24,037 nt of DNA, taken from the IMG/VR virus record IMGVR_UViG_3300046167_000155, positions 1 to 24,037 of that record, one strand, 5' to 3'. The position numbers were made by a program, and so were the translations under genes. This document shows, one piece after another, positions 2,337-24,037 of this stretch. Position 1 is the stretch's first letter. Every line of letters starts with the position of its first letter. The notes under the pieces are model-generated. The model was given only the letters and a program-made list of their open reading frames with translations. It was not told the DNA's origin and made no database searches. Source of the DNA: a virus.

Positions 2337-2951
2337 ATGGCTAATAAAATCATAGATTTAACAGGTAACCAAATTGAGGCTGCCTTACAACTAGTAGACA
2401 CATCAGTCACTGTTGACCAAGTACCTACTCCTGCCAGTAGTTATTTTATCTCTAGTAGTAACTTACACACATATATTGGTGCAGCTATCCAAGGAAGCTT
2501 GAACAACGGTCCAAAGATCACTGCTGCCACTTTTAGTGACAACACTCTTGTTGACCAAAATGAAGGAATTGCAACCAACATAAGTAATGATAAGGTCGCA
2601 ACTACAGCAGCAATTAGAGATTATGTGTTAGACCAAAACCGAGCTACTGTTTCTAATATTTTTTGGGATGGTGATTCTGCTGCCGCTACAGTTACAAATT
2701 TACATAACAATGCTAGTATAAACGTTAGCATAAACGGAGCTGGTAACGAACTGACATTAAACTTAATAGCTAATGACGATGCTCAGTACTTGGTTACAGG
2801 AACGTATTCAGACACTGCTCTGGCAGGTGTAGGCGGTGGTACCGACATTATTAAAAACTTAAGTTCCTTTTTTAACGCTTCTGATTTGGATGTCCTTATA
2901 AATAAAAGTGACTACAATCAAATAAATTTAACTGTTATTCGTTTTGTCTAA
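2337..2951 (+). CDS. Structural protein, probable tail fibre or fibre-associated
   Basis: Encodes 204 aa rich in Asn, Ser, Thr and Asp with few charged or aromatic residues. The sequence is mostly predicted beta, with the phage-fibre-like phrase DKVATTAAIRDYVLDQ at about 84-99, which resembles the short hinge motif seen in many fibre and tail proteins. It starts right after the preceding stop and its last eight bases overlap the next gene, the giant repetitive fibre protein, so the two are likely partners. No catalytic motif is seen. The fibre assignment rests on composition and neighbours. Confidence 0.65.
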   Translation: MANKIIDLTGNQIEAALQLVDTSVTVDQVPTPASSYFISSSNLHTYIGAAIQGSLNNGPKITAATFSDNTLVDQNEGIATNISNDKVATTAAIRDYVLDQNRATVSNIFWDGDSAAATVTNLHNNASINVSINGAGNELTLNLIANDDAQYLVTGTYSDTALAGVGGGTDIIKNLSSFFNASDLDVLINKSDYNQINLTVIRFV

Positions 2952-5900
2952 TTACCCATTACCTTATACAGCAGCACAAATACAAGAGTACCTTGAAAAA
3001 GTAGCGACTCCTGATGGTGCTCCTGTGGGCGACTCATCAGCACTTATTACATCTGGAGCTGTGGCAGAAGCTTTATCAAACTTTACTGGCTCTGGCTCTG
3101 GGTCTGTTAACCTTACAAAAGAGCAAATAGAAGCTTTAGGTATTAGTGTTGACCTAGATCAGATTGGTGATTTAGACCAACTCACTTTAGATTTTGACTC
3201 TATTACTGGTGATGTTGCAGTTTTTCTTGATGATATTACAGACATAGGTAATTTATTCATAAATGCTGATCATGTAACAGGCACTATATCAGCTAATCAG
3301 ATTGGCAACATATCAATGGACAATGTTGATACAATCAACAACTTAAGTCTTTCTGCTAATACAGTTGCTGGTATTGACATATCAGCTACGAATCTTAACG
3401 GATTCCAGAACATGGTTACTGGAGTTTTAGGAAGCGTAAGTATAGTAGCAGATGAGGTATCACCTGAATTTAATTGGACTGGTGTAAATGAAGGCATCAT
3501 GCAAGCTATTAATACACCATTACAAAACATTGTAGATGGTACGTTAGAGAACTACACAATTACTACAAATAATTTATCAGCAATAACTACCTTGTCAGAT
3601 ATCAGCGATAGTTTAAATAACACTGTCAATGCGGCTATACAAAACCAGGTAAATGGTGCATTAGAGTCTTACACAGTTAATGCTGCCAACATTGACGCTG
3701 ATCTAACTATTGAGGATTATGGAGCAGAGGGCAGTACATTCAGACAAACACTTAATGAAGCTATATCAAATGTAGTAGCAGAAGACCTTGGATCATATAC
3801 AATTGATGCTAATAATATCAGTGCTAACTTTACTGTTGATGGTATGGGAAGTGTTTTCGAGACTGCTATTAACCAAGCTATTACAAATCAAGCAGGTATA
3901 ATTTTAGCAGACTATAAGATTGATGCTAACAACATTGAAGCTAATTTTAGTGTAAGTGATTTAGGTACAGACTTTGAGAACGCAGTTAATACAGCAGTTG
4001 ACGCTCGTATTGCTAGTAACTCTGGTAATATTACAATTGAAGCAGAGGCTATTACATCTGACTTTGATATGTCAACATTTACTGGGCACGCTGATTTCCA
4101 AAATGCAATAAACAGTGGTGTTTCTGTATCCTTAGGTAATAGCTCTGGGGATTTGTCTATTGATGTAGGTAACTTGAATGCAGACTTTATACTACCTATT
4201 GGTAACATGGACAGTGATGTTGGTGTGCTTACAGGTGCGTTAATTGAAAACAACGCTCTTAAGATGGATATAGGTATAATGACAGGAGCTTTGACTTTTT
4301 CTAGTTCTTCAGAGAAACAAGATTTCATTAATCAATTCCAAGGTGACTTAGCGATTAACACAAATGTTATTACAGGTGATATCACATCCTCTGGTAATAT
4401 AACAATTCATGCTGATGTTATTACTGATGGTACTATACCAGCAGCACGTCTCGTTGAAACAGACATTAGCCTAGCAATTACACAAATAGCTGACTTATTG
4501 AAGACTAACAATGGAGTAGCTGTAACTGAAACCCAAATAGATGAAAACGGTAATGCAGTTGACTCTTATGTTATAAACCAAGTTGTTATACCACAAGAGT
4601 TACCTAATTTAAATATCACATCAAATTTAGCAGCAGCTTCACTTGATGCTAACAACATAACTGATGGTACACTGTCTCTTCAACGTATTGATCAAACAGG
4701 TTTAAGTATAACAGCGTCTCAAGTTACAGACTTTGATAATAGGATTACAACTGTGCTAGGAGGTACAAACTTTCTTGCGATTGATGGGTCGGACATAGAT
4801 CTTACTGATTTTAATGTTGCTGGATTATCGATAGATGCTGACGAAATAGGTAACATTGACAACAAAATAGAATCAGTGGCTAGTACCATGGGATTTGCTG
4901 ACATATCAAACAGTACTTTGGATTTGTCAGGTGTAGCTGTATCTGGTTTATCTGTTCCTCATTCAGCTATATCTGATTTTGATACAGAAGTGTCATCAAT
5001 TGCAGCTGGGCTTCAATTAAGTAATGTAACTGATTCTGAGATTAACTTCACAGGTATGACTGTTACTGGGTTCGATATTGCAAACCACATTGGAACTGAT
5101 GATTTTAATGCAGCAGTAACAAGTGCTATAGGGACACTAAGCTTTAGTGATATTTCTGGTGGTAGCTTATCATTAACTGATGTAACTGTTAGTGGTCAAT
5201 CTAATCTTGGATTAACTTCTACACACATTTCAGACTTCGATGAAAAACTTACAGCAGCACTTGGTACGATTACGTTTGAAGGGATTACAAACAGTACTTT
5301 AGACTTAACTAATTTTAATGTTTCTGGTTTTAGCCACACAAGTGTTGATGGTCTTACCGACAGAGTTGCTGACTTAACAGCTAATATTGATGCTAGTCAA
5401 TTAAACTTTGTAGATGCTAATGGAGACATAAGTGTTGGTACTGGTGCTAACGATGTGGGTATAGTGGGACTAAATTATACACACATTGAAAACTTTACCC
5501 AAGAAGTTGAGAGTGCAGCAGCAAGTTTAAATTTTTTACAGGTTGATGACAACAGCGAAATTAACTTAACAGATGTAACTCTTACTGGTTTAAATTTAGA
5601 TTTATCTGAATTATCTTCTGGTACACTACCTTCAAACATAACTCTTGATGTTAACCAACTTACTGGTGGTACAATTGATGCTAATCGGTTACCAATTACA
5701 AATAGTAATCTTGAGCTTCTTGGTGCAGACTTAGACTTTGTTGATTTAAATGGTAATCTTACTATTGATGCTGGTAGTATTACTGGTGGTACTTTAAACC
5801 TTGAAAACATGGATGGTTTTGCAGGCACAATACCTACTGAAAACATTGCTGGTATTAATATTGATGTGAACCAATTATCTGGTTCTGATATTGATATCAT

Positions 5901-6204
5901 TGTAAGTAAGCTAACAGGTAACATTAATATTGACATTGAGCACGTTGTTTCACAGGTAGATGCCGATGGTAACCCAGTAGGGAATCCTTTGAATTTGCTT
6001 CTTGACATTGATCAAGTAACAGGTGATTTGTTTTTAGACGCTTCTAAGCTTAAAGGTGAGATTGTTGTAGGACAAGTTACAGGTCTTGGTGGTGGTGGTA
6101 GTGGTTTACCTGATGGCACAGTATGGAAAGAGTTTGTTACTTTAGAGAATGGTGTACCTACTAAATATTGGATGCCAACTTTACTAAGTAACCCAGATGA
6201 ATAA
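2944..6204 (+). CDS. Large repetitive tail fibre/adhesin-like protein (1086 aa)
   Basis: The TTG start at 2944 lies in an 8-base overlap (TTGTCTAA) with the previous gene. Residues 1-50 carry a common phage fibre head phrase (DSSALITSGAVAEAL). After that the protein is almost entirely repeats. Type A, about 40 aa, occurs about four times at 200-355 around a Tyr-Thr-Ile-Asp-Ala-Asn-Asn-Ile core. Type B, about 46 aa, occurs about six times at 590-890 around an Ile-Ser-Asp-Phe-Asp start and a Leu-Asp-Leu-Thr end. A GTIDA/ITGGTL segment follows, then a glycine-rich hinge and a short tail. The regular Ile/Leu/Asn/Asp pattern suggests a beta-solenoid or trimeric fibre shaft. Cysteine is absent and aromatics are rare. 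Receptor binding is inferred. Confidence 0.8.
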   Translation: MSNYPLPYTAAQIQEYLEKVATPDGAPVGDSSALITSGAVAEALSNFTGSGSGSVNLTKEQIEALGISVDLDQIGDLDQLTLDFDSITGDVAVFLDDITDIGNLFINADHVTGTISANQIGNISMDNVDTINNLSLSANTVAGIDISATNLNGFQNMVTGVLGSVSIVADEVSPEFNWTGVNEGIMQAINTPLQNIVDGTLENYTITTNNLSAITTLSDISDSLNNTVNAAIQNQVNGALESYTVNAANIDADLTIEDYGAEGSTFRQTLNEAISNVVAEDLGSYTIDANNISANFTVDGMGSVFETAINQAITNQAGIILADYKIDANNIEANFSVSDLGTDFENAVNTAVDARIASNSGNITIEAEAITSDFDMSTFTGHADFQNAINSGVSVSLGNSSGDLSIDVGNLNADFILPIGNMDSDVGVLTGALIENNALKMDIGIMTGALTFSSSSEKQDFINQFQGDLAINTNVITGDITSSGNITIHADVITDGTIPAARLVETDISLAITQIADLLKTNNGVAVTETQIDENGNAVDSYVINQVVIPQELPNLNITSNLAAASLDANNITDGTLSLQRIDQTGLSITASQVTDFDNRITTVLGGTNFLAIDGSDIDLTDFNVAGLSIDADEIGNIDNKIESVASTMGFADISNSTLDLSGVAVSGLSVPHSAISDFDTEVSSIAAGLQLSNVTDSEINFTGMTVTGFDIANHIGTDDFNAAVTSAIGTLSFSDISGGSLSLTDVTVSGQSNLGLTSTHISDFDEKLTAALGTITFEGITNSTLDLTNFNVSGFSHTSVDGLTDRVADLTANIDASQLNFVDANGDISVGTGANDVGIVGLNYTHIENFTQEVESAAASLNFLQVDDNSEINLTDVTLTGLNLDLSELSSGTLPSNITLDVNQLTGGTIDANRLPITNSNLELLGADLDFVDLNGNLTIDAGSITGGTLNLENMDGFAGTIPTENIAGINIDVNQLSGSDIDIIVSKLTGNINIDIEHVVSQVDADGNPVGNPLNLLLDIDQVTGDLFLDASKLKGEIVVGQVTGLGGGGSGLPDGTVWKEFVTLENGVPTKYWMPTLLSNPDE

Positions 6205-17138: not shown

Positions 17139-17638
17139 TTATCTGGATAGATGATGAGAACGTAACTGCATCAGTTGTTGTGCATCGATGTCCAGACCAC
17201 ACAATTTGTTCACTGCAGTGTGGCGTCGCAGAGTTTCTAAGGCTCCCTTTGTGGCTAAGCCAGCTTGGGAACGAGTTGGAAATAGTTAATAAATTCTTTA
17301 AAACCCTCATTATCAAGAACGAACTCTCTTTTGTCATGATTGTATACACTGTACCTTTGAACAACAAGTCGTTTAGTTTTGGGATATGCAGACAATGTTA
17401 CCACTACTGCGTTAGTTGGGATAGCGTTAGCTTTTATTTGCCACGCTTTTTGCTCTGGTCTGAGCCTAGTAGTTTCGAACTTACTTTCAATAAGCCAAGT
17501 CTTATCCTGCGTGAGAATGAGCAAATCAGGGACTCCATTCCCTGTACTAGTTTCGATGCGTTGCACCGTAATGTGTTTATTAAATGTTTCATAAAATTGT
17601 TTTGTTAGCCATTTGTTAAATTGTGATTCGTTCTTCAT
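17139..17638 (-). CDS. PD-(D/E)XK nuclease, VRR-NUC-like, C-terminus frameshifted
   Basis: Begins MKNESQFNKWLTKQFYETF. The nuclease core is Gly-Val-Pro-Asp38 followed by TWLIESKF with Glu51-x-Lys53 and a Gln63 on the next helix (LRPEQKAW), the pattern of PD-(D/E)XK nucleases of the VRR-NUC or Holliday-junction-resolvase kind. The first frame stops at 17255. The frame entered by a one-base shift at about 17275-17284 gives TRSQAGLATKGALETLRRH and ends at 17139, which I take as the real C-terminus (about 166 aa). It overlaps the JAB gene by 23 bases, so it is coupled to the ubiquitin-like cassette. It may resolve branched replication DNA or degrade host DNA. Confidence 0.7.
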
Positions 17639-18743
17639 TTTGATATTCCTCAAGCTTGATAACAAGCTGTTGCTTGTCAATACCAAACTGTCCTGAATAT
17701 TTGTCAAGAAGTTTATCAACCAATTTGTAGAATGGACATGTGATTTGTTTGATGTACGCTGAGTACATGTGGTGAGCAATGCGAGTGTCTTCGATCTGTC
17801 CTGTTCTGATGGTTGAGATTTCTGCATCATCGCCACCAGTTTGTGTAACATAATCAAGAAGCTTTTCTTCAAACTCATAATCGTATAAAGAATTGAACAC
17901 CATCTCATCAACGACATCCAACTCACTTATGACCTCGCTTTCTGTAGAGTTTTTTTTTGATGTTGATTTGTTGTATGGGTGATCATCCCACCAAGAGTTT
18001 GTGTCAAAGTAGCCAATACTTCTAGCTTTTGATTTAGTAGTGTATGCTGGAAACTTTGGTTTAGATACATTGTCCATATAACTAGTGAAGTCAAACTTAG
18101 TAAGATCAGGTATCTTGTACAGTTGTTGATTCATGTAGTCCTGTTCTACTGCAAGCATGTCGTCAGTCAGTTCTATATTCTTTTTGAATGGAGACATTGC
18201 ACCGTCAATGACCATAGATAAGTCATCAAGCTCGTGACACTCGTTGTCAAGACACCAACGGAAGTGGATATCAATGTCAGTAGGTTTGTTAAGATTACCA
18301 ATAGTAAAGTGAAAGCCTTCTCGGTTTGTCTCGTCGGCTTCGTCTGTACCAGATTGGAATGCAGATGTACTACAGTGGTGGTGTACAGTACCAAACATAA
18401 TGTCTGGATGTTGTGCACGCTGTACTTGGAAGTTGATGTGCTCTGGGTCAGATTTAACAGTCATACCACTGGTAATCTGGGGTGGTACCCAGAAAGACCA
18501 AGGTTGCTTTTTGTTCTCGTCGTAATACAAGAACAACATAGTCTCTGACTTGAGTACATCATAACTGTGTTTCATGAAAGCAAGAATCTCTTGCCACATG
18601 GTTAACGGTATCTTCTTACCGTTCCACTCTGGGCTAAGTTCTTCGTATTTAGGTAGCTCGACTTTTTGATACGTAGTAAACAAAGGATGTCGTTTTTCTT
18701 CGTACAGGTCGTTTTGTGATAAGACATAATATTTTTTAGACAT
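17616..18743 (-). CDS. JAMM/JAB metalloprotease (deubiquitinase-like)
   Basis: Encodes 375 aa. The JAMM zinc motif is complete: His121-x-His123, seven residues, Ser131, two residues, Asp134 (HHHCSTSAFQSGTD), with Glu67 (SETML) as the likely catalytic glutamate upstream. This motif defines Zn-dependent isopeptidases that remove ubiquitin or ubiquitin-like tails. The rest, from about residue 190, is an extra region of Asp/Tyr/Lys-rich helices that I do not recognise and that could hold the substrate. It starts in an 8-base overlap (ATGTCTAA) with the E1-like gene and ends inside the nuclease gene. In PRTRC and related cassettes a JAB protein accompanies E1 and E2, as here. It may process the Ubl or reverse conjugation. 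Confidence 0.85.
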   Translation of the reverse strand: MSKKYYVLSQNDLYEEKRHPLFTTYQKVELPKYEELSPEWNGKKIPLTMWQEILAFMKHSYDVLKSETMLFLYYDENKKQPWSFWVPPQITSGMTVKSDPEHINFQVQRAQHPDIMFGTVHHHCSTSAFQSGTDEADETNREGFHFTIGNLNKPTDIDIHFRWCLDNECHELDDLSMVIDGAMSPFKKNIELTDDMLAVEQDYMNQQLYKIPDLTKFDFTSYMDNVSKPKFPAYTTKSKARSIGYFDTNSWWDDHPYNKSTSKKNSTESEVISELDVVDEMVFNSLYDYEFEEKLLDYVTQTGGDDAEISTIRTGQIEDTRIAHHMYSAYIKQITCPFYKLVDKLLDKYSGQFGIDKQQLVIKLEEYQNEERITI

Positions 18744-19461
18744 AGGATGGTACGGTTATGTTAGACAGATCTGCTAGTGTAATAGTTTCTAGCTTACTGA
18801 AGGTTGTTTGATACTCGACAGGATACCAGTCGCCACGCTCTTGGTCATCAAGTAAGTATGGTGCCCACAAGTGTAGTAAATAATTACCAAGGGACGCACT
18901 AACTTGATTAGCAATGGCAAGTTGTGGTGTACTTTCTAGTGCGTCGCCTTGGCAGCGGATGGGTGACCCTTCATTAGATGTTGCTAACTCAGGATACCTA
19001 AGAAATGGATTAATCATTGGATACTGTGCTTCTAAGTGTGGCACATACATGAATGCTTGACTTGTTGAATACTCGTTAGCCATAACAAGACATGGTTTGT
19101 CTAGGTCTTTGGCAGTCTCAAGTAACGCTCTGCGTGCAGGATGGTTGTCAACAGCAGCGATGAGTACATCAGCTTGTTGGAACCAGTAATTGTACTCAGT
19201 GTCTAGCATATCGCTGTCAAAGTATTGCTGTATAACACTGCAATTGTGTTTGTTGAAAGTATAAGTCTTTGCTAGTGCGACTGCTTTGTTGAGTCCGACA
19301 TGATTAGTACGGAACAATTGACGGTCTAGATTCTTTTTCTCTAGTGTGTCTCCGTCAATGAGAACAAGCTCTAAGTCGAAGCTGTTCTTGAGGGCTGGTA
19401 GCATGTACGATGTAACACCACCAGCACCTACGATTAGTGCTTTTAGTTTTGGTTTAGCCAT
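18736..19461 (-). CDS. ThiF/E1-like adenylyltransferase (ubiquitin-activating enzyme-like)
   Basis: Encodes 241 aa. It has a Rossmann Gly-rich loop (VGAGGVTS at 11-18), the E1 signature Asp36-x-Asp38 to Asn44-Leu-Asp-Arg47-Gln48, Lys59 in GLNKA and Asp105 in AAVDN; together these bind ATP and adenylate a Ubl C-terminus. Cys170 (SPIRCQGDALES) lies where the ThiF protein of PRTRC cassettes has its conserved cysteine, followed by a similar helix, so thioester formation is plausible. It is shorter than MoeB/ThiF (about 250 aa) but complete. It overlaps both neighbours by 8 bases (ATGGCTAA and ATGTCTAA). The expected substrate is the beta-grasp protein four genes upstream. Confidence 0.9.
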   Translation of the reverse strand: MAKPKLKALIVGAGGVTSYMLPALKNSFDLELVLIDGDTLEKKNLDRQLFRTNHVGLNKAVALAKTYTFNKHNCSVIQQYFDSDMLDTEYNYWFQQADVLIAAVDNHPARRALLETAKDLDKPCLVMANEYSTSQAFMYVPHLEAQYPMINPFLRYPELATSNEGSPIRCQGDALESTPQLAIANQVSASLGNYLLHLWAPYLLDDQERGDWYPVEYQTTFSKLETITLADLSNITVPSYV

Positions 19462-19819
19462 TGCGTTTTAGATATTTGTGAAGTTGTTGACCAGTTACTT
19501 TAGCTGGTTTGTGTTGTGTTTCTTTGAAGTGTTTAATGTAACGAAGTATTGCACCACGCTTACGACCAACACCAGTGTCGGAATCATAATGACGACCTAG
19601 TATTTTAAATAGAATACGCAGTTCGTTTTTTTCAAGACCGTGGTCAATCTCGTGTTCATCAGCCAATCTTTTGTTCTCATTGTCGAGTTCATTAGATAGG
19701 TTTTGCATATGATGTGATGCAACCATTTGACCTGGATTGTCATTTGCATATTGAAATGCATAACGCAATGATGTATCAGCACTAGGCTTTTGAATTAGTT
19801 TGTTGTAGACTGTAGACAT
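19454..19819 (-). CDS. Unknown protein inside the ubiquitin-like cassette
   Basis: Encodes 121 aa, charged and helical. It is rich in His, Lys, Asn and Glu, and contains no cysteine, so it is neither a RING-type E3 nor a second thioester carrier. A likely amphipathic helical pair lies at about 33-80 (NLSNELDNENKRLADEHE, then LEKNELRILFKILGRHY), followed by a basic C-terminal region (GRKRGAILRYIKHFKE). It overlaps the E2-like gene by 25 bases and the E1-like gene by 8, which makes co-expression close to certain. It may be a dedicated adaptor or target of the pathway. I recognise no family. Confidence 0.7.
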   Translation of the reverse strand: MSTVYNKLIQKPSADTSLRYAFQYANDNPGQMVASHHMQNLSNELDNENKRLADEHEIDHGLEKNELRILFKILGRHYDSDTGVGRKRGAILRYIKHFKETQHKPAKVTGQQLHKYLKRNG

Positions 19820-20676
19820 GATGCGAAATCTATAAGGTTAGAGTTAGTAATATCTTGGAAGAAACGACCGTGTGGTTTGTAGTCTTCGTCGAAGTCTGTC
19901 ATTGCATTTGTTGGTACAGTAGCAAACTCATTGTCTCTTTTGTACCACCAAGCATGAGCGTTGACTAGTTCTGAATAAAACAAGTCACGATTACATGGTG
20001 ATTTAAACATTATATTCATTAGATTGGTTACTGCTGTTTGTAAGTACTGAATAGGCATATTATTTTCTATTAGTCGTTCATCTCTGAAGTCTCCACCACC
20101 GCATAGTCTACCGTCGTCATAGATGTTAGGTAGATTGAAGGTAACAATGTTTCTTGATGCTTTGTGTATACCAAACAAATAAGCAGTCATTGGGTCTCTA
20201 CTTTGTTGTAGCTTGGCAGTCTTACTACCGAGATAGCGACAGTTGAATCTAATCATCATCCACATAGAGTAGTCAGTGTTGTTGTACATAACCATATCAG
20301 ATGGTTGAACAACATCCTCAGGTTCAGATCGTTCGCCTCGTCTTTCTGAGTCACTTAGTATATACAGTTCATATAGATCTTGATTATCTGTTTGTCTGAA
20401 TTTTGCACCAGGTAACGGAAAACCGTCATCTAGATTGACGAATGCATAACAATGTTCTGGATTGACACCAGAGTTGTGTGCATAGTAACATTGATACTCC
20501 CTGTTTAGTACAGGGATTGATACAGGTATGTTAGACATACGGAGAGTATCGTCACGCATACAGGCAGTAATAGCTGTGTCTGCGTCAGCGATGACAGATT
20601 CTCTCGTTTCTCGCTTGATAAATTTGCCATCAGGTCCGAGAATGATTTCCTGACGAAGCGGTAGTTGTGTTGACAT
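19795..20676 (-). CDS. E2-like ubiquitin-conjugating protein, PRTRC protein B type
   Basis: Encodes 293 aa from the ATG at 20676; an upstream in-frame ATG at 20718 would add 14 less likely residues. The key block is FNLPNIYDDGRLCGGGDFRDE at about 180-200. An Asn-(Ile/Val)-(Tyr/Phe)-Asp-Asp-Gly-Arg-(Leu/Val)-Cys core like this is what I remember for PRTRC system protein B, the prokaryotic E2 family D, whose cysteine (here Cys192) is the proposed thioester site. It is followed at the usual distance by a hydrophobic helix and FKSPCNRDLF. The N-terminal half is unlike eukaryotic E2 and unassigned. The order E2, small protein, E1, JAB supports the reading. Distant family; moderate certainty. Confidence 0.7.
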   Translation of the reverse strand: MSTQLPLRQEIILGPDGKFIKRETRESVIADADTAITACMRDDTLRMSNIPVSIPVLNREYQCYYAHNSGVNPEHCYAFVNLDDGFPLPGAKFRQTDNQDLYELYILSDSERRGERSEPEDVVQPSDMVMYNNTDYSMWMMIRFNCRYLGSKTAKLQQSRDPMTAYLFGIHKASRNIVTFNLPNIYDDGRLCGGGDFRDERLIENNMPIQYLQTAVTNLMNIMFKSPCNRDLFYSELVNAHAWWYKRDNEFATVPTNAMTDFDEDYKPHGRFFQDITNSNLIDFASCLQSTTN

Positions 20677-20763
20677 GATAGTTATATAAAGGGGACCAAC
20701 GGTGTGATACCTGTGCACTTCGAGTCACATATAAGGATTTCACACACACCATTGGTATTGTTG

Positions 20764-20994
20764 TTACGCTTTACTTGATGCTTGTCGTTCTAGCGTGATT
20801 GATGAGTAGTCAGCTACATAAGCATCAGTGCTTAGTGTTTGACCGTTTGAAACAGCGACGCAACCTTCTGGTGCTGATAAAGCACCAAGAATGGATGAGT
20901 CACGAAGTAGAGAACCTACTGTGAGATTCTCGTCGAAGGAACGACTAACTGAGTTAGACATTCCGTATCTGATTGTGATTGTAGTATTATCCAT
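20764..20994 (-). CDS. Ubiquitin-like beta-grasp protein (76 aa)
   Basis: The preferred start is the ATG at 20994, which makes the same 8-base overlap (ATGGATAA) with the previous gene as two later junctions; an ATG at 21003 would add three residues. The pattern is that of ThiS/ubiquitin-like folds: strand TTITIRY, strand RSFDENL, helix TVGSLLRDSSILGAL, strand GCVAVSNG, then the diagnostic ADYSSITLER before the end (compare Leu-x-Asp-Gly-Asp-x-Ile-x-Leu). The C-terminus is Gln-Ala-Ser-Ser-Lys-Ala, with no glycine after Gly51, which is odd for a conjugated Ubl. It is the likely partner of the E1- and E2-like proteins. The fold is assigned by pattern only. Confidence 0.7.
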   Translation of the reverse strand: MDNTTITIRYGMSNSVSRSFDENLTVGSLLRDSSILGALSAPEGCVAVSNGQTLSTDAYVADYSSITLERQASSKA

Positions 20995-21190
20995 AAAAGT
21001 CAATTGACAAATCTCTACCTATACTGTAATTTTGTAGTCCAAGTTCATTTGGTATTGTTGTCATAAGGATTCCCCTCCCTCGTATAGAGAGAGGGGATCC
21101 ATTTTCGTTATGAATGACGTTTCCGTCGCCTGCCTTTGTTACTCTGTAAAACTCTGTACAGTATTCGGTTGGTTGCACATTTGAATACAT
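20987..21190 (-). CDS. Unknown small protein with C-terminal glycine (67 aa)
   Basis: The ATG at 21190 shares a base with the previous stop (TGATG), and the end overlaps the Ubl gene. The 67 residues are soluble and probably beta-rich, rich in Gly, Asn, Tyr and Ile. One cysteine lies at position 12 and the chain ends Ser-Ile-Asp-Phe-Tyr-Gly. No family is recognised. Its position directly before the Ubl gene, with overlap, makes it a possible member of the same pathway. Confidence 0.6.
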   Translation of the reverse strand: MYSNVQPTEYCTEFYRVTKAGDGNVIHNENGSPLSIRGRGILMTTIPNELGLQNYSIGRDLSIDFYG

Positions 21191-21546: not shown

Positions 21547-21564
21547 GTGATAGTAAGTGTATTA
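21547..21564 (-). promoter_or_regulatory. T7-type promoter-like motif
   Basis: The minus strand reads TAATACACTTACTATCAC. It shares 16 bases with a second site at 23297-23312 and resembles the T7 RNA polymerase promoter core (TAATACGACTCACTATA) with one base fewer. It lies 49 bases before the 102-aa gene and just past a UUCG hairpin. A partial copy (ATACACTTA) follows at 21528-21536. No phage RNA polymerase gene is in the window. Confidence 0.5.
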
Positions 21565-21585
21565 TATTGTTTTTGTTGGGTAAAG

Positions 21586-21607
21586 GTGTCCTACCGAAGT
21601 AGGACAC
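21586..21607 (-). terminator. UUCG-loop hairpin at the end of the 68-aa gene
   Basis: A perfect 9-bp stem (GTGTCCTAC with GTAGGACAC) closes a UUCG loop on the minus strand, flanked by C and G as in the very stable cUUCGg tetraloop. The stem includes the stop codon of the 68-aa gene. Only a short CUUU follows, so termination may be weak, or the hairpin may protect the 3' end. A promoter-like motif comes next. Confidence 0.55.
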
Positions 21608-21797
21608 GCTTTAAGTGTTGACGATACAGTATTACTTGAAAGAGGTTGAGTGACATTTTGCGTTGTCTGAAATTTGAGTTGGTGAGCCAACGAAATGCGT
21701 ACATAATGTCGTATAGTATAACGCAGGTCATGATAGTAACTGGCATTACGATGTCGTAGTCCCAGGTTAGTCTAAGTTCGAATAGCAGTTTGTTCAT
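21591..21797 (-). CDS. Small membrane protein (68 aa)
   Basis: The ATG at 21797 gives MNKLLFELRLTWDYDIVMPV. One hydrophobic segment spans about residues 16-34 (IVMPVTIMTCVILYDIMYAF), followed by a strongly basic, helical tail (FRQRK, LYRQHLKRVLLR). It overlaps the end of the 293-aa gene by 26 bases, and its stop lies inside a UUCG hairpin. Longer readings upstream in this frame would only shadow the 293-aa gene. Small membrane proteins with basic tails are common among early phage genes; no function can be assigned. Confidence 0.55.
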   Translation of the reverse strand: MNKLLFELRLTWDYDIVMPVTIMTCVILYDIMYAFRWLTNSNFRQRKMSLNLFQVILYRQHLKRVLLR

Positions 21798-22653
21798 AGT
21801 GTTTGTTTTCTTTGTAGTTAGCGTCGATGATAGCTTGTTTAAGGGCACTGCGTCTGCGATTGACTTTTGTTGCCCATTGTTGCTTTGTCTCGTTGTTACG
21901 AGTTGGTTGGGTAAGACTAAAGAACATACGAATGTCATCTTCGTTATGTGATAGTCGAAGTGTACGAAGCATAGTCTTGCGTTGGTCAAGAGTGCGGTAT
22001 GTAGGTTCTGGATGACTTTGTTGATAGAGACCATTGAGTAAGCCTATGTTACCACGAGGTTTTTTGCGATTGAGACGAGTTGTGTCTGCGACATAATGGC
22101 TGTCGTCTGGGTCGCACTCTGGTTCTTGATTAAACGATTCACGGTACTCTTGTCTGTTAGCGTGTTGCTGAGTCTGTGATAGTGGCTCTATGAACTCTGC
22201 AGAGTTGCCAAGTTCTTCGTAGGTTTCGAATGGTACAGAGCGTATGTTGGTTGCACTTTCTTCTTGGTACAACTTGCTTAGACGCTTAGCTATGTTGAGG
22301 AACTCACGGCGTCGTTTGATGCCGTAGTCACGATTGTCAGCATTGCGTAGTGCAGAGACATATTGGTCGTGCACATCTTTGAGGAATGCTTGTTGTTGTT
22401 GTGATAGTGCTTGCATACAGGACATATCGCCTGCGACTAGGTCATCGTTGGGGTCGCAATGGTTGGTGTATATTTCGTTGTAGGCGAGCCATTGGTCGAC
22501 GATTTGTATTGGGTCGATGTCTCTAGGTGCTTTGCGATAGTTGTTGCGTATGTGTTGTTTGGCTAGTAGGAAAAGCTGACGCCAGCCAGCTTTGTACTCG
22601 TCTGAGTATTTCTCGTGTGATAGTGTTTCAGTAATTAGTTGTTGTATTGTCAT
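21772..22653 (-). CDS. Unknown helical protein, Gln/Asn/Arg-rich (293 aa)
   Basis: Encodes 293 aa, almost entirely charged and polar. Helical segments lie near 1-65, a long Gln-rich helix at 85-130, a disordered Glu/Pro/Asp stretch at about 140-195, and a basic C-terminal part with RTLDQRKTMLRTLRLSHNED at about 220-239 and QWATKVNRRRSALKQAI near 260-275. The basic C-terminal helices could bind nucleic acid, but no named domain or catalytic motif is visible. No hydrophobic segment is present. It lies between two small unknown genes in the early region and overlaps the 68-aa gene by 26 bases. It could be a regulator or host-takeover protein; this is inference. Confidence 0.7.
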   Translation of the reverse strand: MTIQQLITETLSHEKYSDEYKAGWRQLFLLAKQHIRNNYRKAPRDIDPIQIVDQWLAYNEIYTNHCDPNDDLVAGDMSCMQALSQQQQAFLKDVHDQYVSALRNADNRDYGIKRRREFLNIAKRLSKLYQEESATNIRSVPFETYEELGNSAEFIEPLSQTQQHANRQEYRESFNQEPECDPDDSHYVADTTRLNRKKPRGNIGLLNGLYQQSHPEPTYRTLDQRKTMLRTLRLSHNEDDIRMFFSLTQPTRNNETKQQWATKVNRRRSALKQAIIDANYKENKHYEQTAIRT

Positions 22654-22700
22654 AACGAAAAGTAGACAGTTTAGGCACTTGTCTAGGTGTTAACATATGA

Positions 22701-22997
22701 TTAATTTGAAAAGAATTCTGAAGGTGCGACAGTAGCGTCTGCGTAGTATTCTGAGCTTTCATTGCTTTCATCTACTTTACGGTTGCCTGTAGTGACTACG
22801 ATCGTGATAGTGTCTCCTTTGTTGCCAAGGATTTTGTTGTCACGGTCCCAGAACTTTTTGGAAGTTTTGTTTTTAAACAGAACAGTTGTGCAAGCCAATG
22901 GTTTCATTGGGTCGTTGTTGTTAGTGATGTCTACATCAGCTGACACTACGAAGGCGTCGATGATAGTAGTTTGATTAGGAATAGTTAAGTCTAGCAT
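22701..22997 (-). CDS. Unknown small soluble protein (98 aa)
   Basis: Encodes 98 aa, predicted mainly beta (LTIPNQTTIIDAFVVSADVD, then DTITIVVTTGNRK) with an acidic, Ser/Glu-rich C-terminal tail ending EFFSN. The beta layout with an acidic aromatic tail is reminiscent of small ssDNA- or protein-binding folds, but I see no family signature. It starts two bases after the end of the 91-aa membrane protein gene and is followed by a 47-base gap before the 293-aa gene. Confidence 0.6.
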   Translation of the reverse strand: MLDLTIPNQTTIIDAFVVSADVDITNNNDPMKPLACTTVLFKNKTSKKFWDRDNKILGNKGDTITIVVTTGNRKVDESNESSEYYADATVAPSEFFSN

Positions 22998-22999
22998 AA

Positions 23000-23275
23000 T
23001 TATTTGATGATTGTGTTGTTAATGTTATCAACTACGCCATCTCTTATATTGTGGATGCCGTCTTTGAGTTTAGTCCAGTTGCCTCGGTCGATGATGTCTC
23101 GACTGATGCGTGATAGGTGTATTTTGTTTGTCTTGTGAGACTTTGAAAAACAGCGAGCGAAGTACTCGCTGTAGCAACGCTTGGCGAACCAGAGCGTGAA
23201 AGCAACAGGTATTGCTATTGGGAAGAGCACGAGTCCGAGGACAGTGCCGATTGTGTAGAAGATGTCTTTATTCAT
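23000..23275 (-). CDS. Small membrane protein (91 aa)
   Basis: The start is taken at the ATG at 23275, giving MNKDIFYTIGTVLG; ATGs further upstream would run through the promoter-like motif and add an unlikely His/Thr-rich stretch. A long hydrophobic segment covers about residues 5-31 and the remainder is basic, then helical with alternating Asp/Asn/Ile. This suggests a single-pass protein with a cytoplasmic tail. It stands 21 bases downstream of a promoter-like motif and is followed by the 98-aa gene within three bases. No family is recognised. Confidence 0.6.
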   Translation of the reverse strand: MNKDIFYTIGTVLGLVLFPIAIPVAFTLWFAKRCYSEYFARCFSKSHKTNKIHLSRISRDIIDRGNWTKLKDGIHNIRDGVVDNINNTIIK

Positions 23276-23296
23276 AACATTCATAAATCTCTTTGT

Positions 23297-23312
23297 GTGA
23301 TAGTAAGTGTAT
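23297..23312 (-). promoter_or_regulatory. Second copy of the T7-type promoter-like motif
   Basis: The minus strand reads ATACACTTACTATCAC, identical over 16 bases to the site at 21547-21564, and continues ACAAAG, shared with a third partial copy at 23441-23452. It lies 21 bases before the ATG at 23275. Two exact intergenic copies on the same strand, both just before a gene, support a promoter or protein-binding site. Confidence 0.5.
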
Positions 23313-23412
23313 CTGAGGATTCTGGGGGTGGTTCCTAGGTTGGTGTTGTGTGGTATGTTGTGCTTAGTATTCATATGATAGTTGTGGATGTGCGTTAGCA
23401 TTTTGAAAGGAA

Positions 23413-23435
23413 CAACAACCCAGGTTGGGTTGTTG
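23413..23435. terminator. Perfect 10-bp hairpin in the 23402-23482 gap
   Basis: CAACAACCCA, three bases, then TGGGTTGTTG. On the plus strand it is followed by CTTTTG, on the minus strand by TTCCTTTC, so it could end transcription weakly from either side. It lies between the 77-aa gene and the next promoter-like motif. Confidence 0.45.
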
Positions 23436-23440
23436 CTTTT

Positions 23441-23452
23441 GTGTGATAGTAA
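23441..23452 (-). promoter_or_regulatory. Third, partial copy of the promoter-like motif
   Basis: The minus strand reads TTACTATCACAC followed by AAAAG, matching the 3' half of the other two sites but lacking the ATACAC half. It lies directly after the UUCG hairpin at 23452-23473. It may be a degenerate promoter or a binding site. Confidence 0.35.
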
Positions 23453-23473
23453 CCCAACCCCGAAGGGCTGGGT
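23452..23473 (-). terminator. UUCG-loop hairpin after the 77-aa gene
   Basis: On the minus strand ACCCAGCCC, loop TTCG, GGGTTGGGT forms a 9-bp stem with one G-U pair closed by the stable cUUCGg loop. It begins ten bases after the stop of the 77-aa gene and has no T-tract. It is built like the hairpin at 21586-21607, and both precede a promoter-like motif. Confidence 0.5.
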
Positions 23474-23482
23474 TGGTTGGGC

Positions 23483-23716
23483 TTATCGAGGGTAGACGAT
23501 GTAGTCGGTGTAGCCGTTTGATTCGACTAACACGACCTCCACTGCTGACTCTCTGGGTAAGCGTTCTTCGAGCCAAGGTTTGATGAACTTTCTGGCTCCG
23601 TCAATCTCTATTTCAATAAGAGTGGGATACTCGGTGAACCCTGCTATATCGCTGACTTGTTTGACTACTCCTTGGTAGGTATCTGATGTTTCTAAGAATA
23701 TTGATTTATTTGACAT
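23483..23716 (-). CDS. Unknown small protein, first gene of the leftward block (77 aa)
   Basis: Encodes 77 aa, with TLIEIEIDGARKFIKPWL in the middle and VEVVLVESNGYTDYIVYPR at the end. It is a compact mixed alpha/beta protein with no cysteine or membrane segment. No Shine-Dalgarno sequence precedes the ATG. A hairpin with a UUCG loop follows the stop after ten bases, suggesting a short separate transcript. As the first gene transcribed leftward from the structured noncoding region, it may be expressed very early. No family is recognised. Confidence 0.6.
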   Translation of the reverse strand: MSNKSIFLETSDTYQGVVKQVSDIAGFTEYPTLIEIEIDGARKFIKPWLEERLPRESAVEVVLVESNGYTDYIVYPR

Positions 23717-23731
23717 ATGTTATATTTGGTT

Positions 23732-23885
23732 GTGTTAATAGATAGGCAGAGTGCCAATCTTCGGAGCTTTAGCTCTTACCATGCCTGTCAACAATGGAGC
23801 TTTAGCTCCACCCTTTAGGGTCGTAGATTGTTGATTGGTATGGTAACCTTTAGGCGATGATTGGTGCTCTGCATGTCATTAACAC
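23732..23885 (+). ncRNA. Branched structured RNA (or cruciform DNA) with UUUA loops
   Basis: Nested inverted repeats fold into a tree. P1 pairs 23732-23739 with 23878-23885 (8 bp). P2 pairs 23746-23759 with 23859-23872 (14 bp, two G-U). P4 pairs 23776-23795 with 23827-23846 (20 positions, two G-U, one U-U). Hairpins with UUUA loops branch off at 23764-23775, 23796-23809 and 23810-23821, with a weak fourth (2 bp) at 23847-23854. All four non-Watson-Crick wobbles are G-U on the plus strand and would be A-C on the minus strand, which points to a plus-strand RNA, opposite to the neighbouring genes. No known RNA family comes to mind. A DNA role (origin, packaging, recombination site) is the alternative. 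Confidence 0.6.
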
Positions 23886-24037
23886 TCCAAATAGGACATA
23901 TGTTAAAGAAATCATTTATTCTCTTGAAAGATCAGATGCATGCCAATGATAGTCATAAACAAGCCTGCGATAGAGCAGGGTTTGCCGAGTAGCCCCCTTA
24001 TTGGTTAGAGAGTGACGGAGACAAAAAGGTCAGCAAG
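23886..24037. other. Noncoding end of the window
   Basis: No convincing gene is seen on either strand; the longest ATG-started frames are under 20 codons. A 5-bp hairpin (CCTGC/GCAGG) lies at 23964-23979. Together with the structured element this makes about 320 bases without a gene at the upstream end of the leftward block, where early promoters or an origin would be expected, but no promoter is identified. Confidence 0.5.

Follow-up and report, generated by a model that had tools for sequence, protein, structure and literature searches.

A branched 154-nt element forms the exchangeable head of a giant hairpin in a phage, built from a protein gene and an inverted pseudo-copy of it

The branched element at positions 23732–23885 raises the question whether a compact structured RNA stands by itself at this phage locus or belongs to something larger, and which strand, and which kind of nucleic acid, would do the folding. 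The window, i.e. the whole stretch of DNA analysed, corresponds to an IMG/VR virus record 24,037 nt long; the right arm of the palindrome surrounding the element (P-I) runs past its end, and P-I was seen whole only via contig L003, which is 99.3% identical to the window over 4.1 kb, extends 3.3 kb further and shows no differences from the window over 23452–24037. The features of the locus are as follows (window coordinates unless stated otherwise).

23452–24037, plus strand: in-window part of palindrome P-I, from the self-reverse-complement match (whole palindrome: L003 3560–4268, ending at about window position 24160)
23483–23716, minus strand: gene X (77 aa), located within the P-I left arm and leading the leftward early operon, from same-position homologues in relatives
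23732–23885, plus strand: branched 154-nt element, head of the giant hairpin, from the fold
23732–23739/23878–23885, plus strand: outer helix of the head, 8 bp, predicted fold
23741–23744/23874–23877, plus strand: head helix, 4 bp, predicted fold
23746–23759/23859–23872, plus strand: head helix, 14 bp, predicted fold
Between the 14-bp and the 10+9-bp helices, plus strand: head helix, 3 bp, predicted fold
23764–23775, plus strand: hairpin GAGC-UUUA-GCUC, predicted fold
23776–23795/23827–23846, plus strand: head helix, 10+9 bp, predicted fold
23796–23809, plus strand: hairpin GGAGC-UUUA-GCUCC, predicted fold
23810–23821, plus strand: hairpin ACCC-UUUA-GGGU, predicted fold
23847–23854, plus strand: weak 2-bp hairpin CC-UUUA-GG, predicted fold
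23886–24037, no strand assigned: in-window portion of the right arm, which is the inverted pseudo-copy of gene X, from the inverted repeat and the L003 arm (remainder outside the window, L003 3994–4268)

The branched fold with nested stems that the preliminary description had drawn for the 154 nt was essentially right: the plus strand folds at −79.4 kcal/mol (z −10.0; mean of 200 dinucleotide shuffles −39.2, none as low), and folding of both strands, proposed there as a check, gave −62.1 kcal/mol (z −8.1) for the minus strand. The repeated UUUA-capped hairpins also recurred, four in number with one of just 2 bp, as did the wobble pairs in G-U form on the plus strand, which amount to five among the 63 pairs of the head instead of the four counted earlier. 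The sole relative sharing this head, L003, is identical there and thus offers no informative changes for covariation.

The boundaries at 23732 and 23885 proved too small, since the stem extends about 280 further bases on each side. In L003, P-I spans 709 nt as an imperfect palindrome centred on the head; it aligns with its own reverse complement at 75% identity over 742 columns (E 8e-113) and folds at −416.8 kcal/mol (mononucleotide shuffles −202.6, sd 7.2). Below the head follows a rod, a long, interrupted helix continuous with the head helix, to which the inverted repeat I1 (23621–23662/23957–23998, 83% complementary) belongs. The head lies directly upstream of gene X (gene start at 23716, head edge at 23732), and the right arm is frameshifted with no ORF matching gene X. 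Three parts make up P-I: gene X on the minus strand of the left arm, the head in the middle, and in the right arm a non-coding pseudo-copy of this gene in inverted orientation. That the 154 nt act as a free-standing phage regulatory RNA, as first described, is therefore highly improbable: the fold is strong alone and a short head with no rod occurs in a sister group, but in the window's genome the helix passes unbroken into the 709-nt palindrome.

Relatives were gathered with the terminase encoded in L003, yielding 80 loci, 33 of which contain a P-I of 608–870 nt (five of these being copies or near-copies of others); further members came via gene X, as additional X loci with an inverted-arm match. 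The arrangement is shared by about 35 related IMG/VR contigs. Where the sequence reaches far enough upstream of the terminase, almost all loci show a long palindrome at this position, 1–2.5 kb from the terminase and flanked by early genes running leftward and terminase genes running rightward. The left arm encodes an X homologue in every P-I checked (18–36% amino acid identity to the window's X; down to about 20% across genes X), and the arms stay complementary despite this divergence: a right arm agrees with the gene X of its own locus, while P-Is of different clades have no mutual blastn match. By tblastn, a frameshifted X was recognisable in the right arms of L005, L043, L054, L055, L057–L059 and L067. 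An assembly artefact was ruled out, as the arms differ by 20–35% with indels and the arrangement recurs in independent contigs; a divergent functional gene pair was ruled out for most members, the right arm being frameshifted with stops.

The rod was found only where gene X is present. A sister group (L018–L020, L066, L112–L124; terminase 85–93% identical) carries a head of one of the recurrent types (type B, see below) at the same locus with neither gene X nor rod; head and rod are therefore separable. L111, a relative of the window's lineage, has a second palindrome (P-II) and no detectable P-I. The window DNA gave no match to known phage genomes, gene X had none in the phage collection or in bacterial genomes, and no such palindrome occurs in MW202510, the closest cultured-type relative by terminase (48%). 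The phage group carrying P-I is known from metagenomes only.

The heads above the rod vary greatly, and most contain one of two sequence modules: type A (GUCAAGGUGGAG ... CUACCUU) with 21 invariant columns in 16 heads, and type B (GGUCGGG ... ACAGCAAnCC) with 17 invariant columns in 16 heads, part of this invariance arising by construction as the heads were collected by motif search. The window's head fits neither type clearly; a partial resemblance to type A by eye (CUGUCAA...UGGAG) is not claimed as membership. In the giant hairpin, of which a protein gene and the inverted pseudo-copy of that gene are part, the element at 23732–23885 occupies the place of the exchangeable head. Within the rods, a 1x5 internal loop was counted 24 times in 10 of 22 representatives, the left side always being A and the right side GUUAA or a close variant, at a spacing of 24–27 nt or about double; the window's rod lacks the A/GUUAA loop. 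Most clades, the window excepted, also show a bulge of 4–6 nt in the 5' arm about 20–25 bp below the end of the main stem (L028, L037, L040, L046, L054, L055, L061, L067, L082 and others).

The codon pattern of gene X, analysed within one clade, showed an excess of synonymous change: 28 of 45 variable sites fell on codon position 3, and 26 variable codons were synonymous versus 10 nonsynonymous. Protein X had no Pfam and no PHROG match and no solved structure related by sequence. Its AlphaFold2 model is a five-strand beta barrel (pLDDT 80), for which Foldseek returned a weak OB/cold-shock-like match (best E 0.058) and VIA-align 2 a best Z of 7.2 (rmsd 5.1, 77 aligned), a range in which unrelated folds also score. 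Judged from this model, a nucleic-acid-binding role of protein X is plausible.

The mismatches between the arms were examined in a strand-neutral self-alignment with the P-Is pooled. Besides 9332 Watson-Crick pairs, there were 564 G-U, 102 A-C and 1050 other pairs when read on the plus strand (138 G-U versus 20 A-C inside helices), so that the plus-strand preference first noted for the head holds across the whole family. Among recent right-arm transitions opposite an unchanged left base in four close clades, 52 gave G-U and 8 gave A-C (p 5e-7 on site opportunity; 1e-4 with local strand composition allowed for). The local plus strand is G/T-rich, which leads to an expected G-U:A-C ratio near 1.9. 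That strand-biased mutation alone produced the surplus of G-U was ruled out: singleton changes in the spacer were unbiased (17 C>T plus A>G versus 16 T>C plus G>A), and the observed ratio is 5–7. The mismatches that persist are those that a plus-strand fold tolerates, G-U being kept and A-C rare. Consensus energies were lower for the plus than for the minus strand in five of five clades, minus-strand folding being weaker in nearly all P-Is. Taken together, the plus strand is supported as the folding strand. Little or no G-U excess was present in L039, L055, L056 and L059, and in the sister group that has a head and no rod, minus-strand folding matches or surpasses that of the plus strand.

Transversion mismatches are tolerated in P-I (71 changes), and A-C is rarer than these other mismatches; a simple constraint on a plus-strand fold does not predict this, which counts against a simple plus-strand RNA. 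The same mismatch pattern could result from selection against base-pairing of the minus-strand X mRNA. The right arm plus head would then constitute the 5' leader of the early mRNA, in which pairing of pseudo-copy and X controls X translation or RNase III processing, and the A-C excess on the minus strand would reflect selection weakening this pairing. Such a leader would agree with the rarity of A-C, with the position of the head directly upstream of the gene X start, with a minus-strand fold of the head that is itself far from chance, with the minus-strand folding of the short-headed sister group, and with a conserved GATAGGGT 30–90 nt outside the right arm in most relatives as a possible early promoter spot. 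We consider it rather unlikely, however: minus-strand folding is the weaker one in nearly all P-Is, loss of the right arm would be the simplest change if pairing harmed X, yet the arm is kept, and the repeated A/GUUAA loops are left unexplained.

The arms also change in concert. In the rod alignment of one clade, 47 of 338 pairs are Watson-Crick double changes, and 45 pure Watson-Crick double changes were counted alongside the 52 G-U and 8 A-C transitions. Altogether 83 double changes comprised 41 of transition type and 42 of transversion type, a ratio resembling the substitution spectrum of the left arm (40 transitions to 31 transversions). Since double changes of transversion type cannot pass through G-U, they suit copying rather than stepwise compensation. 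In clades C3 and C4, changes accumulate several-fold faster in the right arm than in the left. Template switching is known to create and maintain RNA hairpins (PMC8794818), and copying from the coding arm at the DNA level is probably also at work in P-I; arm complementarity may be renewed partly by template switching during DNA replication, with plus-strand selection then acting as a filter.

Taken to its extreme, such copying would make P-I a functionless inverted duplication whose arms are kept alike by quasi-palindrome template switching. The ability of hairpins to arise and persist in this way (PMC8794818), the near-homogenised copies in L055, L059 and L039 and the double changes that mirror the substitution spectrum would be accounted for. 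This is nevertheless distinctly improbable given that the arrangement is kept at one locus in dozens of divergent contigs, that head modules are conserved and loops repeated, and that a strand-asymmetric filter of 52:8 is in operation.

G-T is also better tolerated than A-C in single-stranded DNA, so that the strand bias does not separate RNA from ssDNA. P-I might be a single-stranded DNA hairpin or cruciform serving as a replication, recombination or packaging signal by the terminase genes, a reading that we regard as rather unlikely. Its location between divergent early and late arms at 1–2.5 kb from the terminase, the second palindrome of about 250 nt close by, the compatibility of the G-T preference with a plus-strand ssDNA fold and the likeness of the double changes to DNA-level copying speak for it. 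By contrast, L111 has no detectable P-I and the sister group has no rod, which argues against an essential role of the rod as origin or packaging site, and a full protein gene within an origin is rare. Of the alternatives to a plus-strand RNA, the strongest are a hairpin signal in DNA and an mRNA leader on the minus strand.

The second palindrome, P-II, occupies L003 5159–5416 and has an equivalent nearer the terminase in most relatives; the P-IIs of different relatives are still detectably similar in sequence and contain GTGTCTACA-like repeats. Its mismatches show no plus-strand excess (176 vs 296) and lean to A-C and C-C on the plus strand, opposite to P-I; P-II may have the minus strand as its folding strand, or it may function as DNA. 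The surroundings are rich in further repeats. The motif GTGATAGT occurs eight times in the window (21547–23450, the last 2.5 kb; 1.08 expected), always on the plus strand, and 12 times in L003 (1655–4533); other clades have AGTATATATTG-like copies in its place, mostly on the plus strand near early-gene starts (six in tandem in L055). The conserved GATAGGGT is a single plus-strand site to the right of P-I (e.g. L056 5807, L028 8539) and a possible minus-strand early promoter or end-processing site. The interval between P-I and P-II (L003 4600–5040) is repeat-rich and noncoding, with many GAGCGAAGCGAGC and TTCTTCCAGGGAATGAAG repeats, and the early region left of P-I contains several palindromes of 45–65 nt that are about 80% self-complementary (L054, L056, L047, L048 and others). 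Elsewhere in the window, the minus-strand stretch 17616–21003 includes a ThiF/E1-like protein (18736–19461; Pfam ThiF, E 4e-19) flanked by a 375-aa protein without Pfam match and a 79-aa protein that by eye resembles ubiquitin; together these may form a ubiquitin-like conjugation set of the phage. The plus-strand stretch 2944–6204 encodes a 1086-aa protein without Pfam match and with degenerate 'ADxITGxIxxxxI' repeats by eye, probably a tail fibre.

As a tentative explanation, which we favour while holding it to fall somewhat short of an even chance, P-I would be a plus-strand giant hairpin, probably of RNA, that is antisense to X and acts as scaffold or decoy through its rod and head. The folded molecule would comprise a rod of about 250–320 bp and a protein- or RNA-binding head. 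Being antisense to gene X, its synthesis and that of X would oppose each other, and protein X, predicted to be OB-fold/cold-shock-like, might bind the head or the rod. The pseudo-copy would lock the antisense arm in an intramolecular duplex, so that the RNA would serve as a scaffold or decoy in the shape of a rod and not act as a free antisense RNA. We infer RNA rather than DNA as the material, and the function as scaffold or decoy is a conjecture. No convincing plus-strand promoter for P-I was identified.

No named RNA of such a form had been recognised in the preliminary description, and Rfam 15 covariance models at gathering score likewise gave no family match in the window and nine relatives. 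Permissive Rfam searches returned sub-threshold matches of chance type only, mainly to microRNA hairpin models; mir-30 and MIR6217 were ruled out as such generic long-hairpin matches. The sequences in alignment A1 proved too heterogeneous to be used in scanning a collection. According to the general origin model, hpRNA loci and plant MIR genes are born by inverted duplication of their target gene. Transcripts of hpRNA loci are cut into small RNAs, by which the target is silenced. P-I resembles Drosophila hpRNA loci and plant MIR genes in being a long hairpin from an inverted copy of a protein gene and complementary to that gene, and its arms do derive from such a copy, as in hpRNA loci (PMC10317233, PMC10292708). 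It differs in that it resides in a phage, the gene itself forms one arm, RNAi machinery is lacking and a branched head is added. To our knowledge, there is no RNAi in bacteria, and we know of no bacterial or phage precedent for a gene kept opposite its own inverted pseudo-copy.

Among structured RNAs, phi29 pRNA is likewise phage-encoded, and P-I also lies near packaging genes; pRNA measures 174 nt and is not a long rod, and P-I has no Rfam match. Leaders of cspA-type cold-shock mRNAs are similar in that a structured stretch of about 150 nt immediately precedes a small gene, the product here being predicted OB/cold-shock-like; in P-I, however, it is the opposite strand on which folding is favoured, an inverted gene copy forms part of the structure, Rfam gives no match, and protein X shows weak fold similarity only, with no sequence match. 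GOLLD, ROOL and OLE are very large structured RNAs, some of them in phages (PMC12286853), with multi-domain folds, whereas P-I is one long rod plus head that overlaps a protein gene in antisense and has no Rfam match. The cabRNA of staphylococcal phages, a structured RNA that measures several hundred nt and originates in the terminase region (PMC10686824), activates a CBASS cyclase. It derives from the terS-terL genes themselves, in contrast to P-I, which lies outside the terminase genes, 1–2.5 kb upstream, and stems from an inverted gene duplication. By analogy of design, the eukaryotic hairpin-RNA locus appears nearest, and GOLLD and cabRNA appear nearest in kind; membership in neither is claimed. 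No matching report of a giant palindrome or hairpin RNA in phages was found in the literature covered, subscription papers being outside this coverage.

P-I may represent a new class of giant phage RNA, a proposal we put forward with less than even confidence: a dsRNA rod of 250–320 bp with an exchangeable conserved head and, in some members, periodic loops, built from an early gene and its continually re-matched inverted pseudo-copy and used as a scaffold or decoy during infection. If it is RNA, it would be a new family among the large structured phage RNAs; if transcribed, it would rank among the longest near-continuous dsRNA rods encoded by a phage and would raise questions of RNase III resistance, host dsRNA sensing and phage counter-defence. 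With the coding arm as a fixed reference and the free arm following, the locus offers a natural test bed for the upkeep of long palindromes, in which template switching is set against selection on the folded strand.
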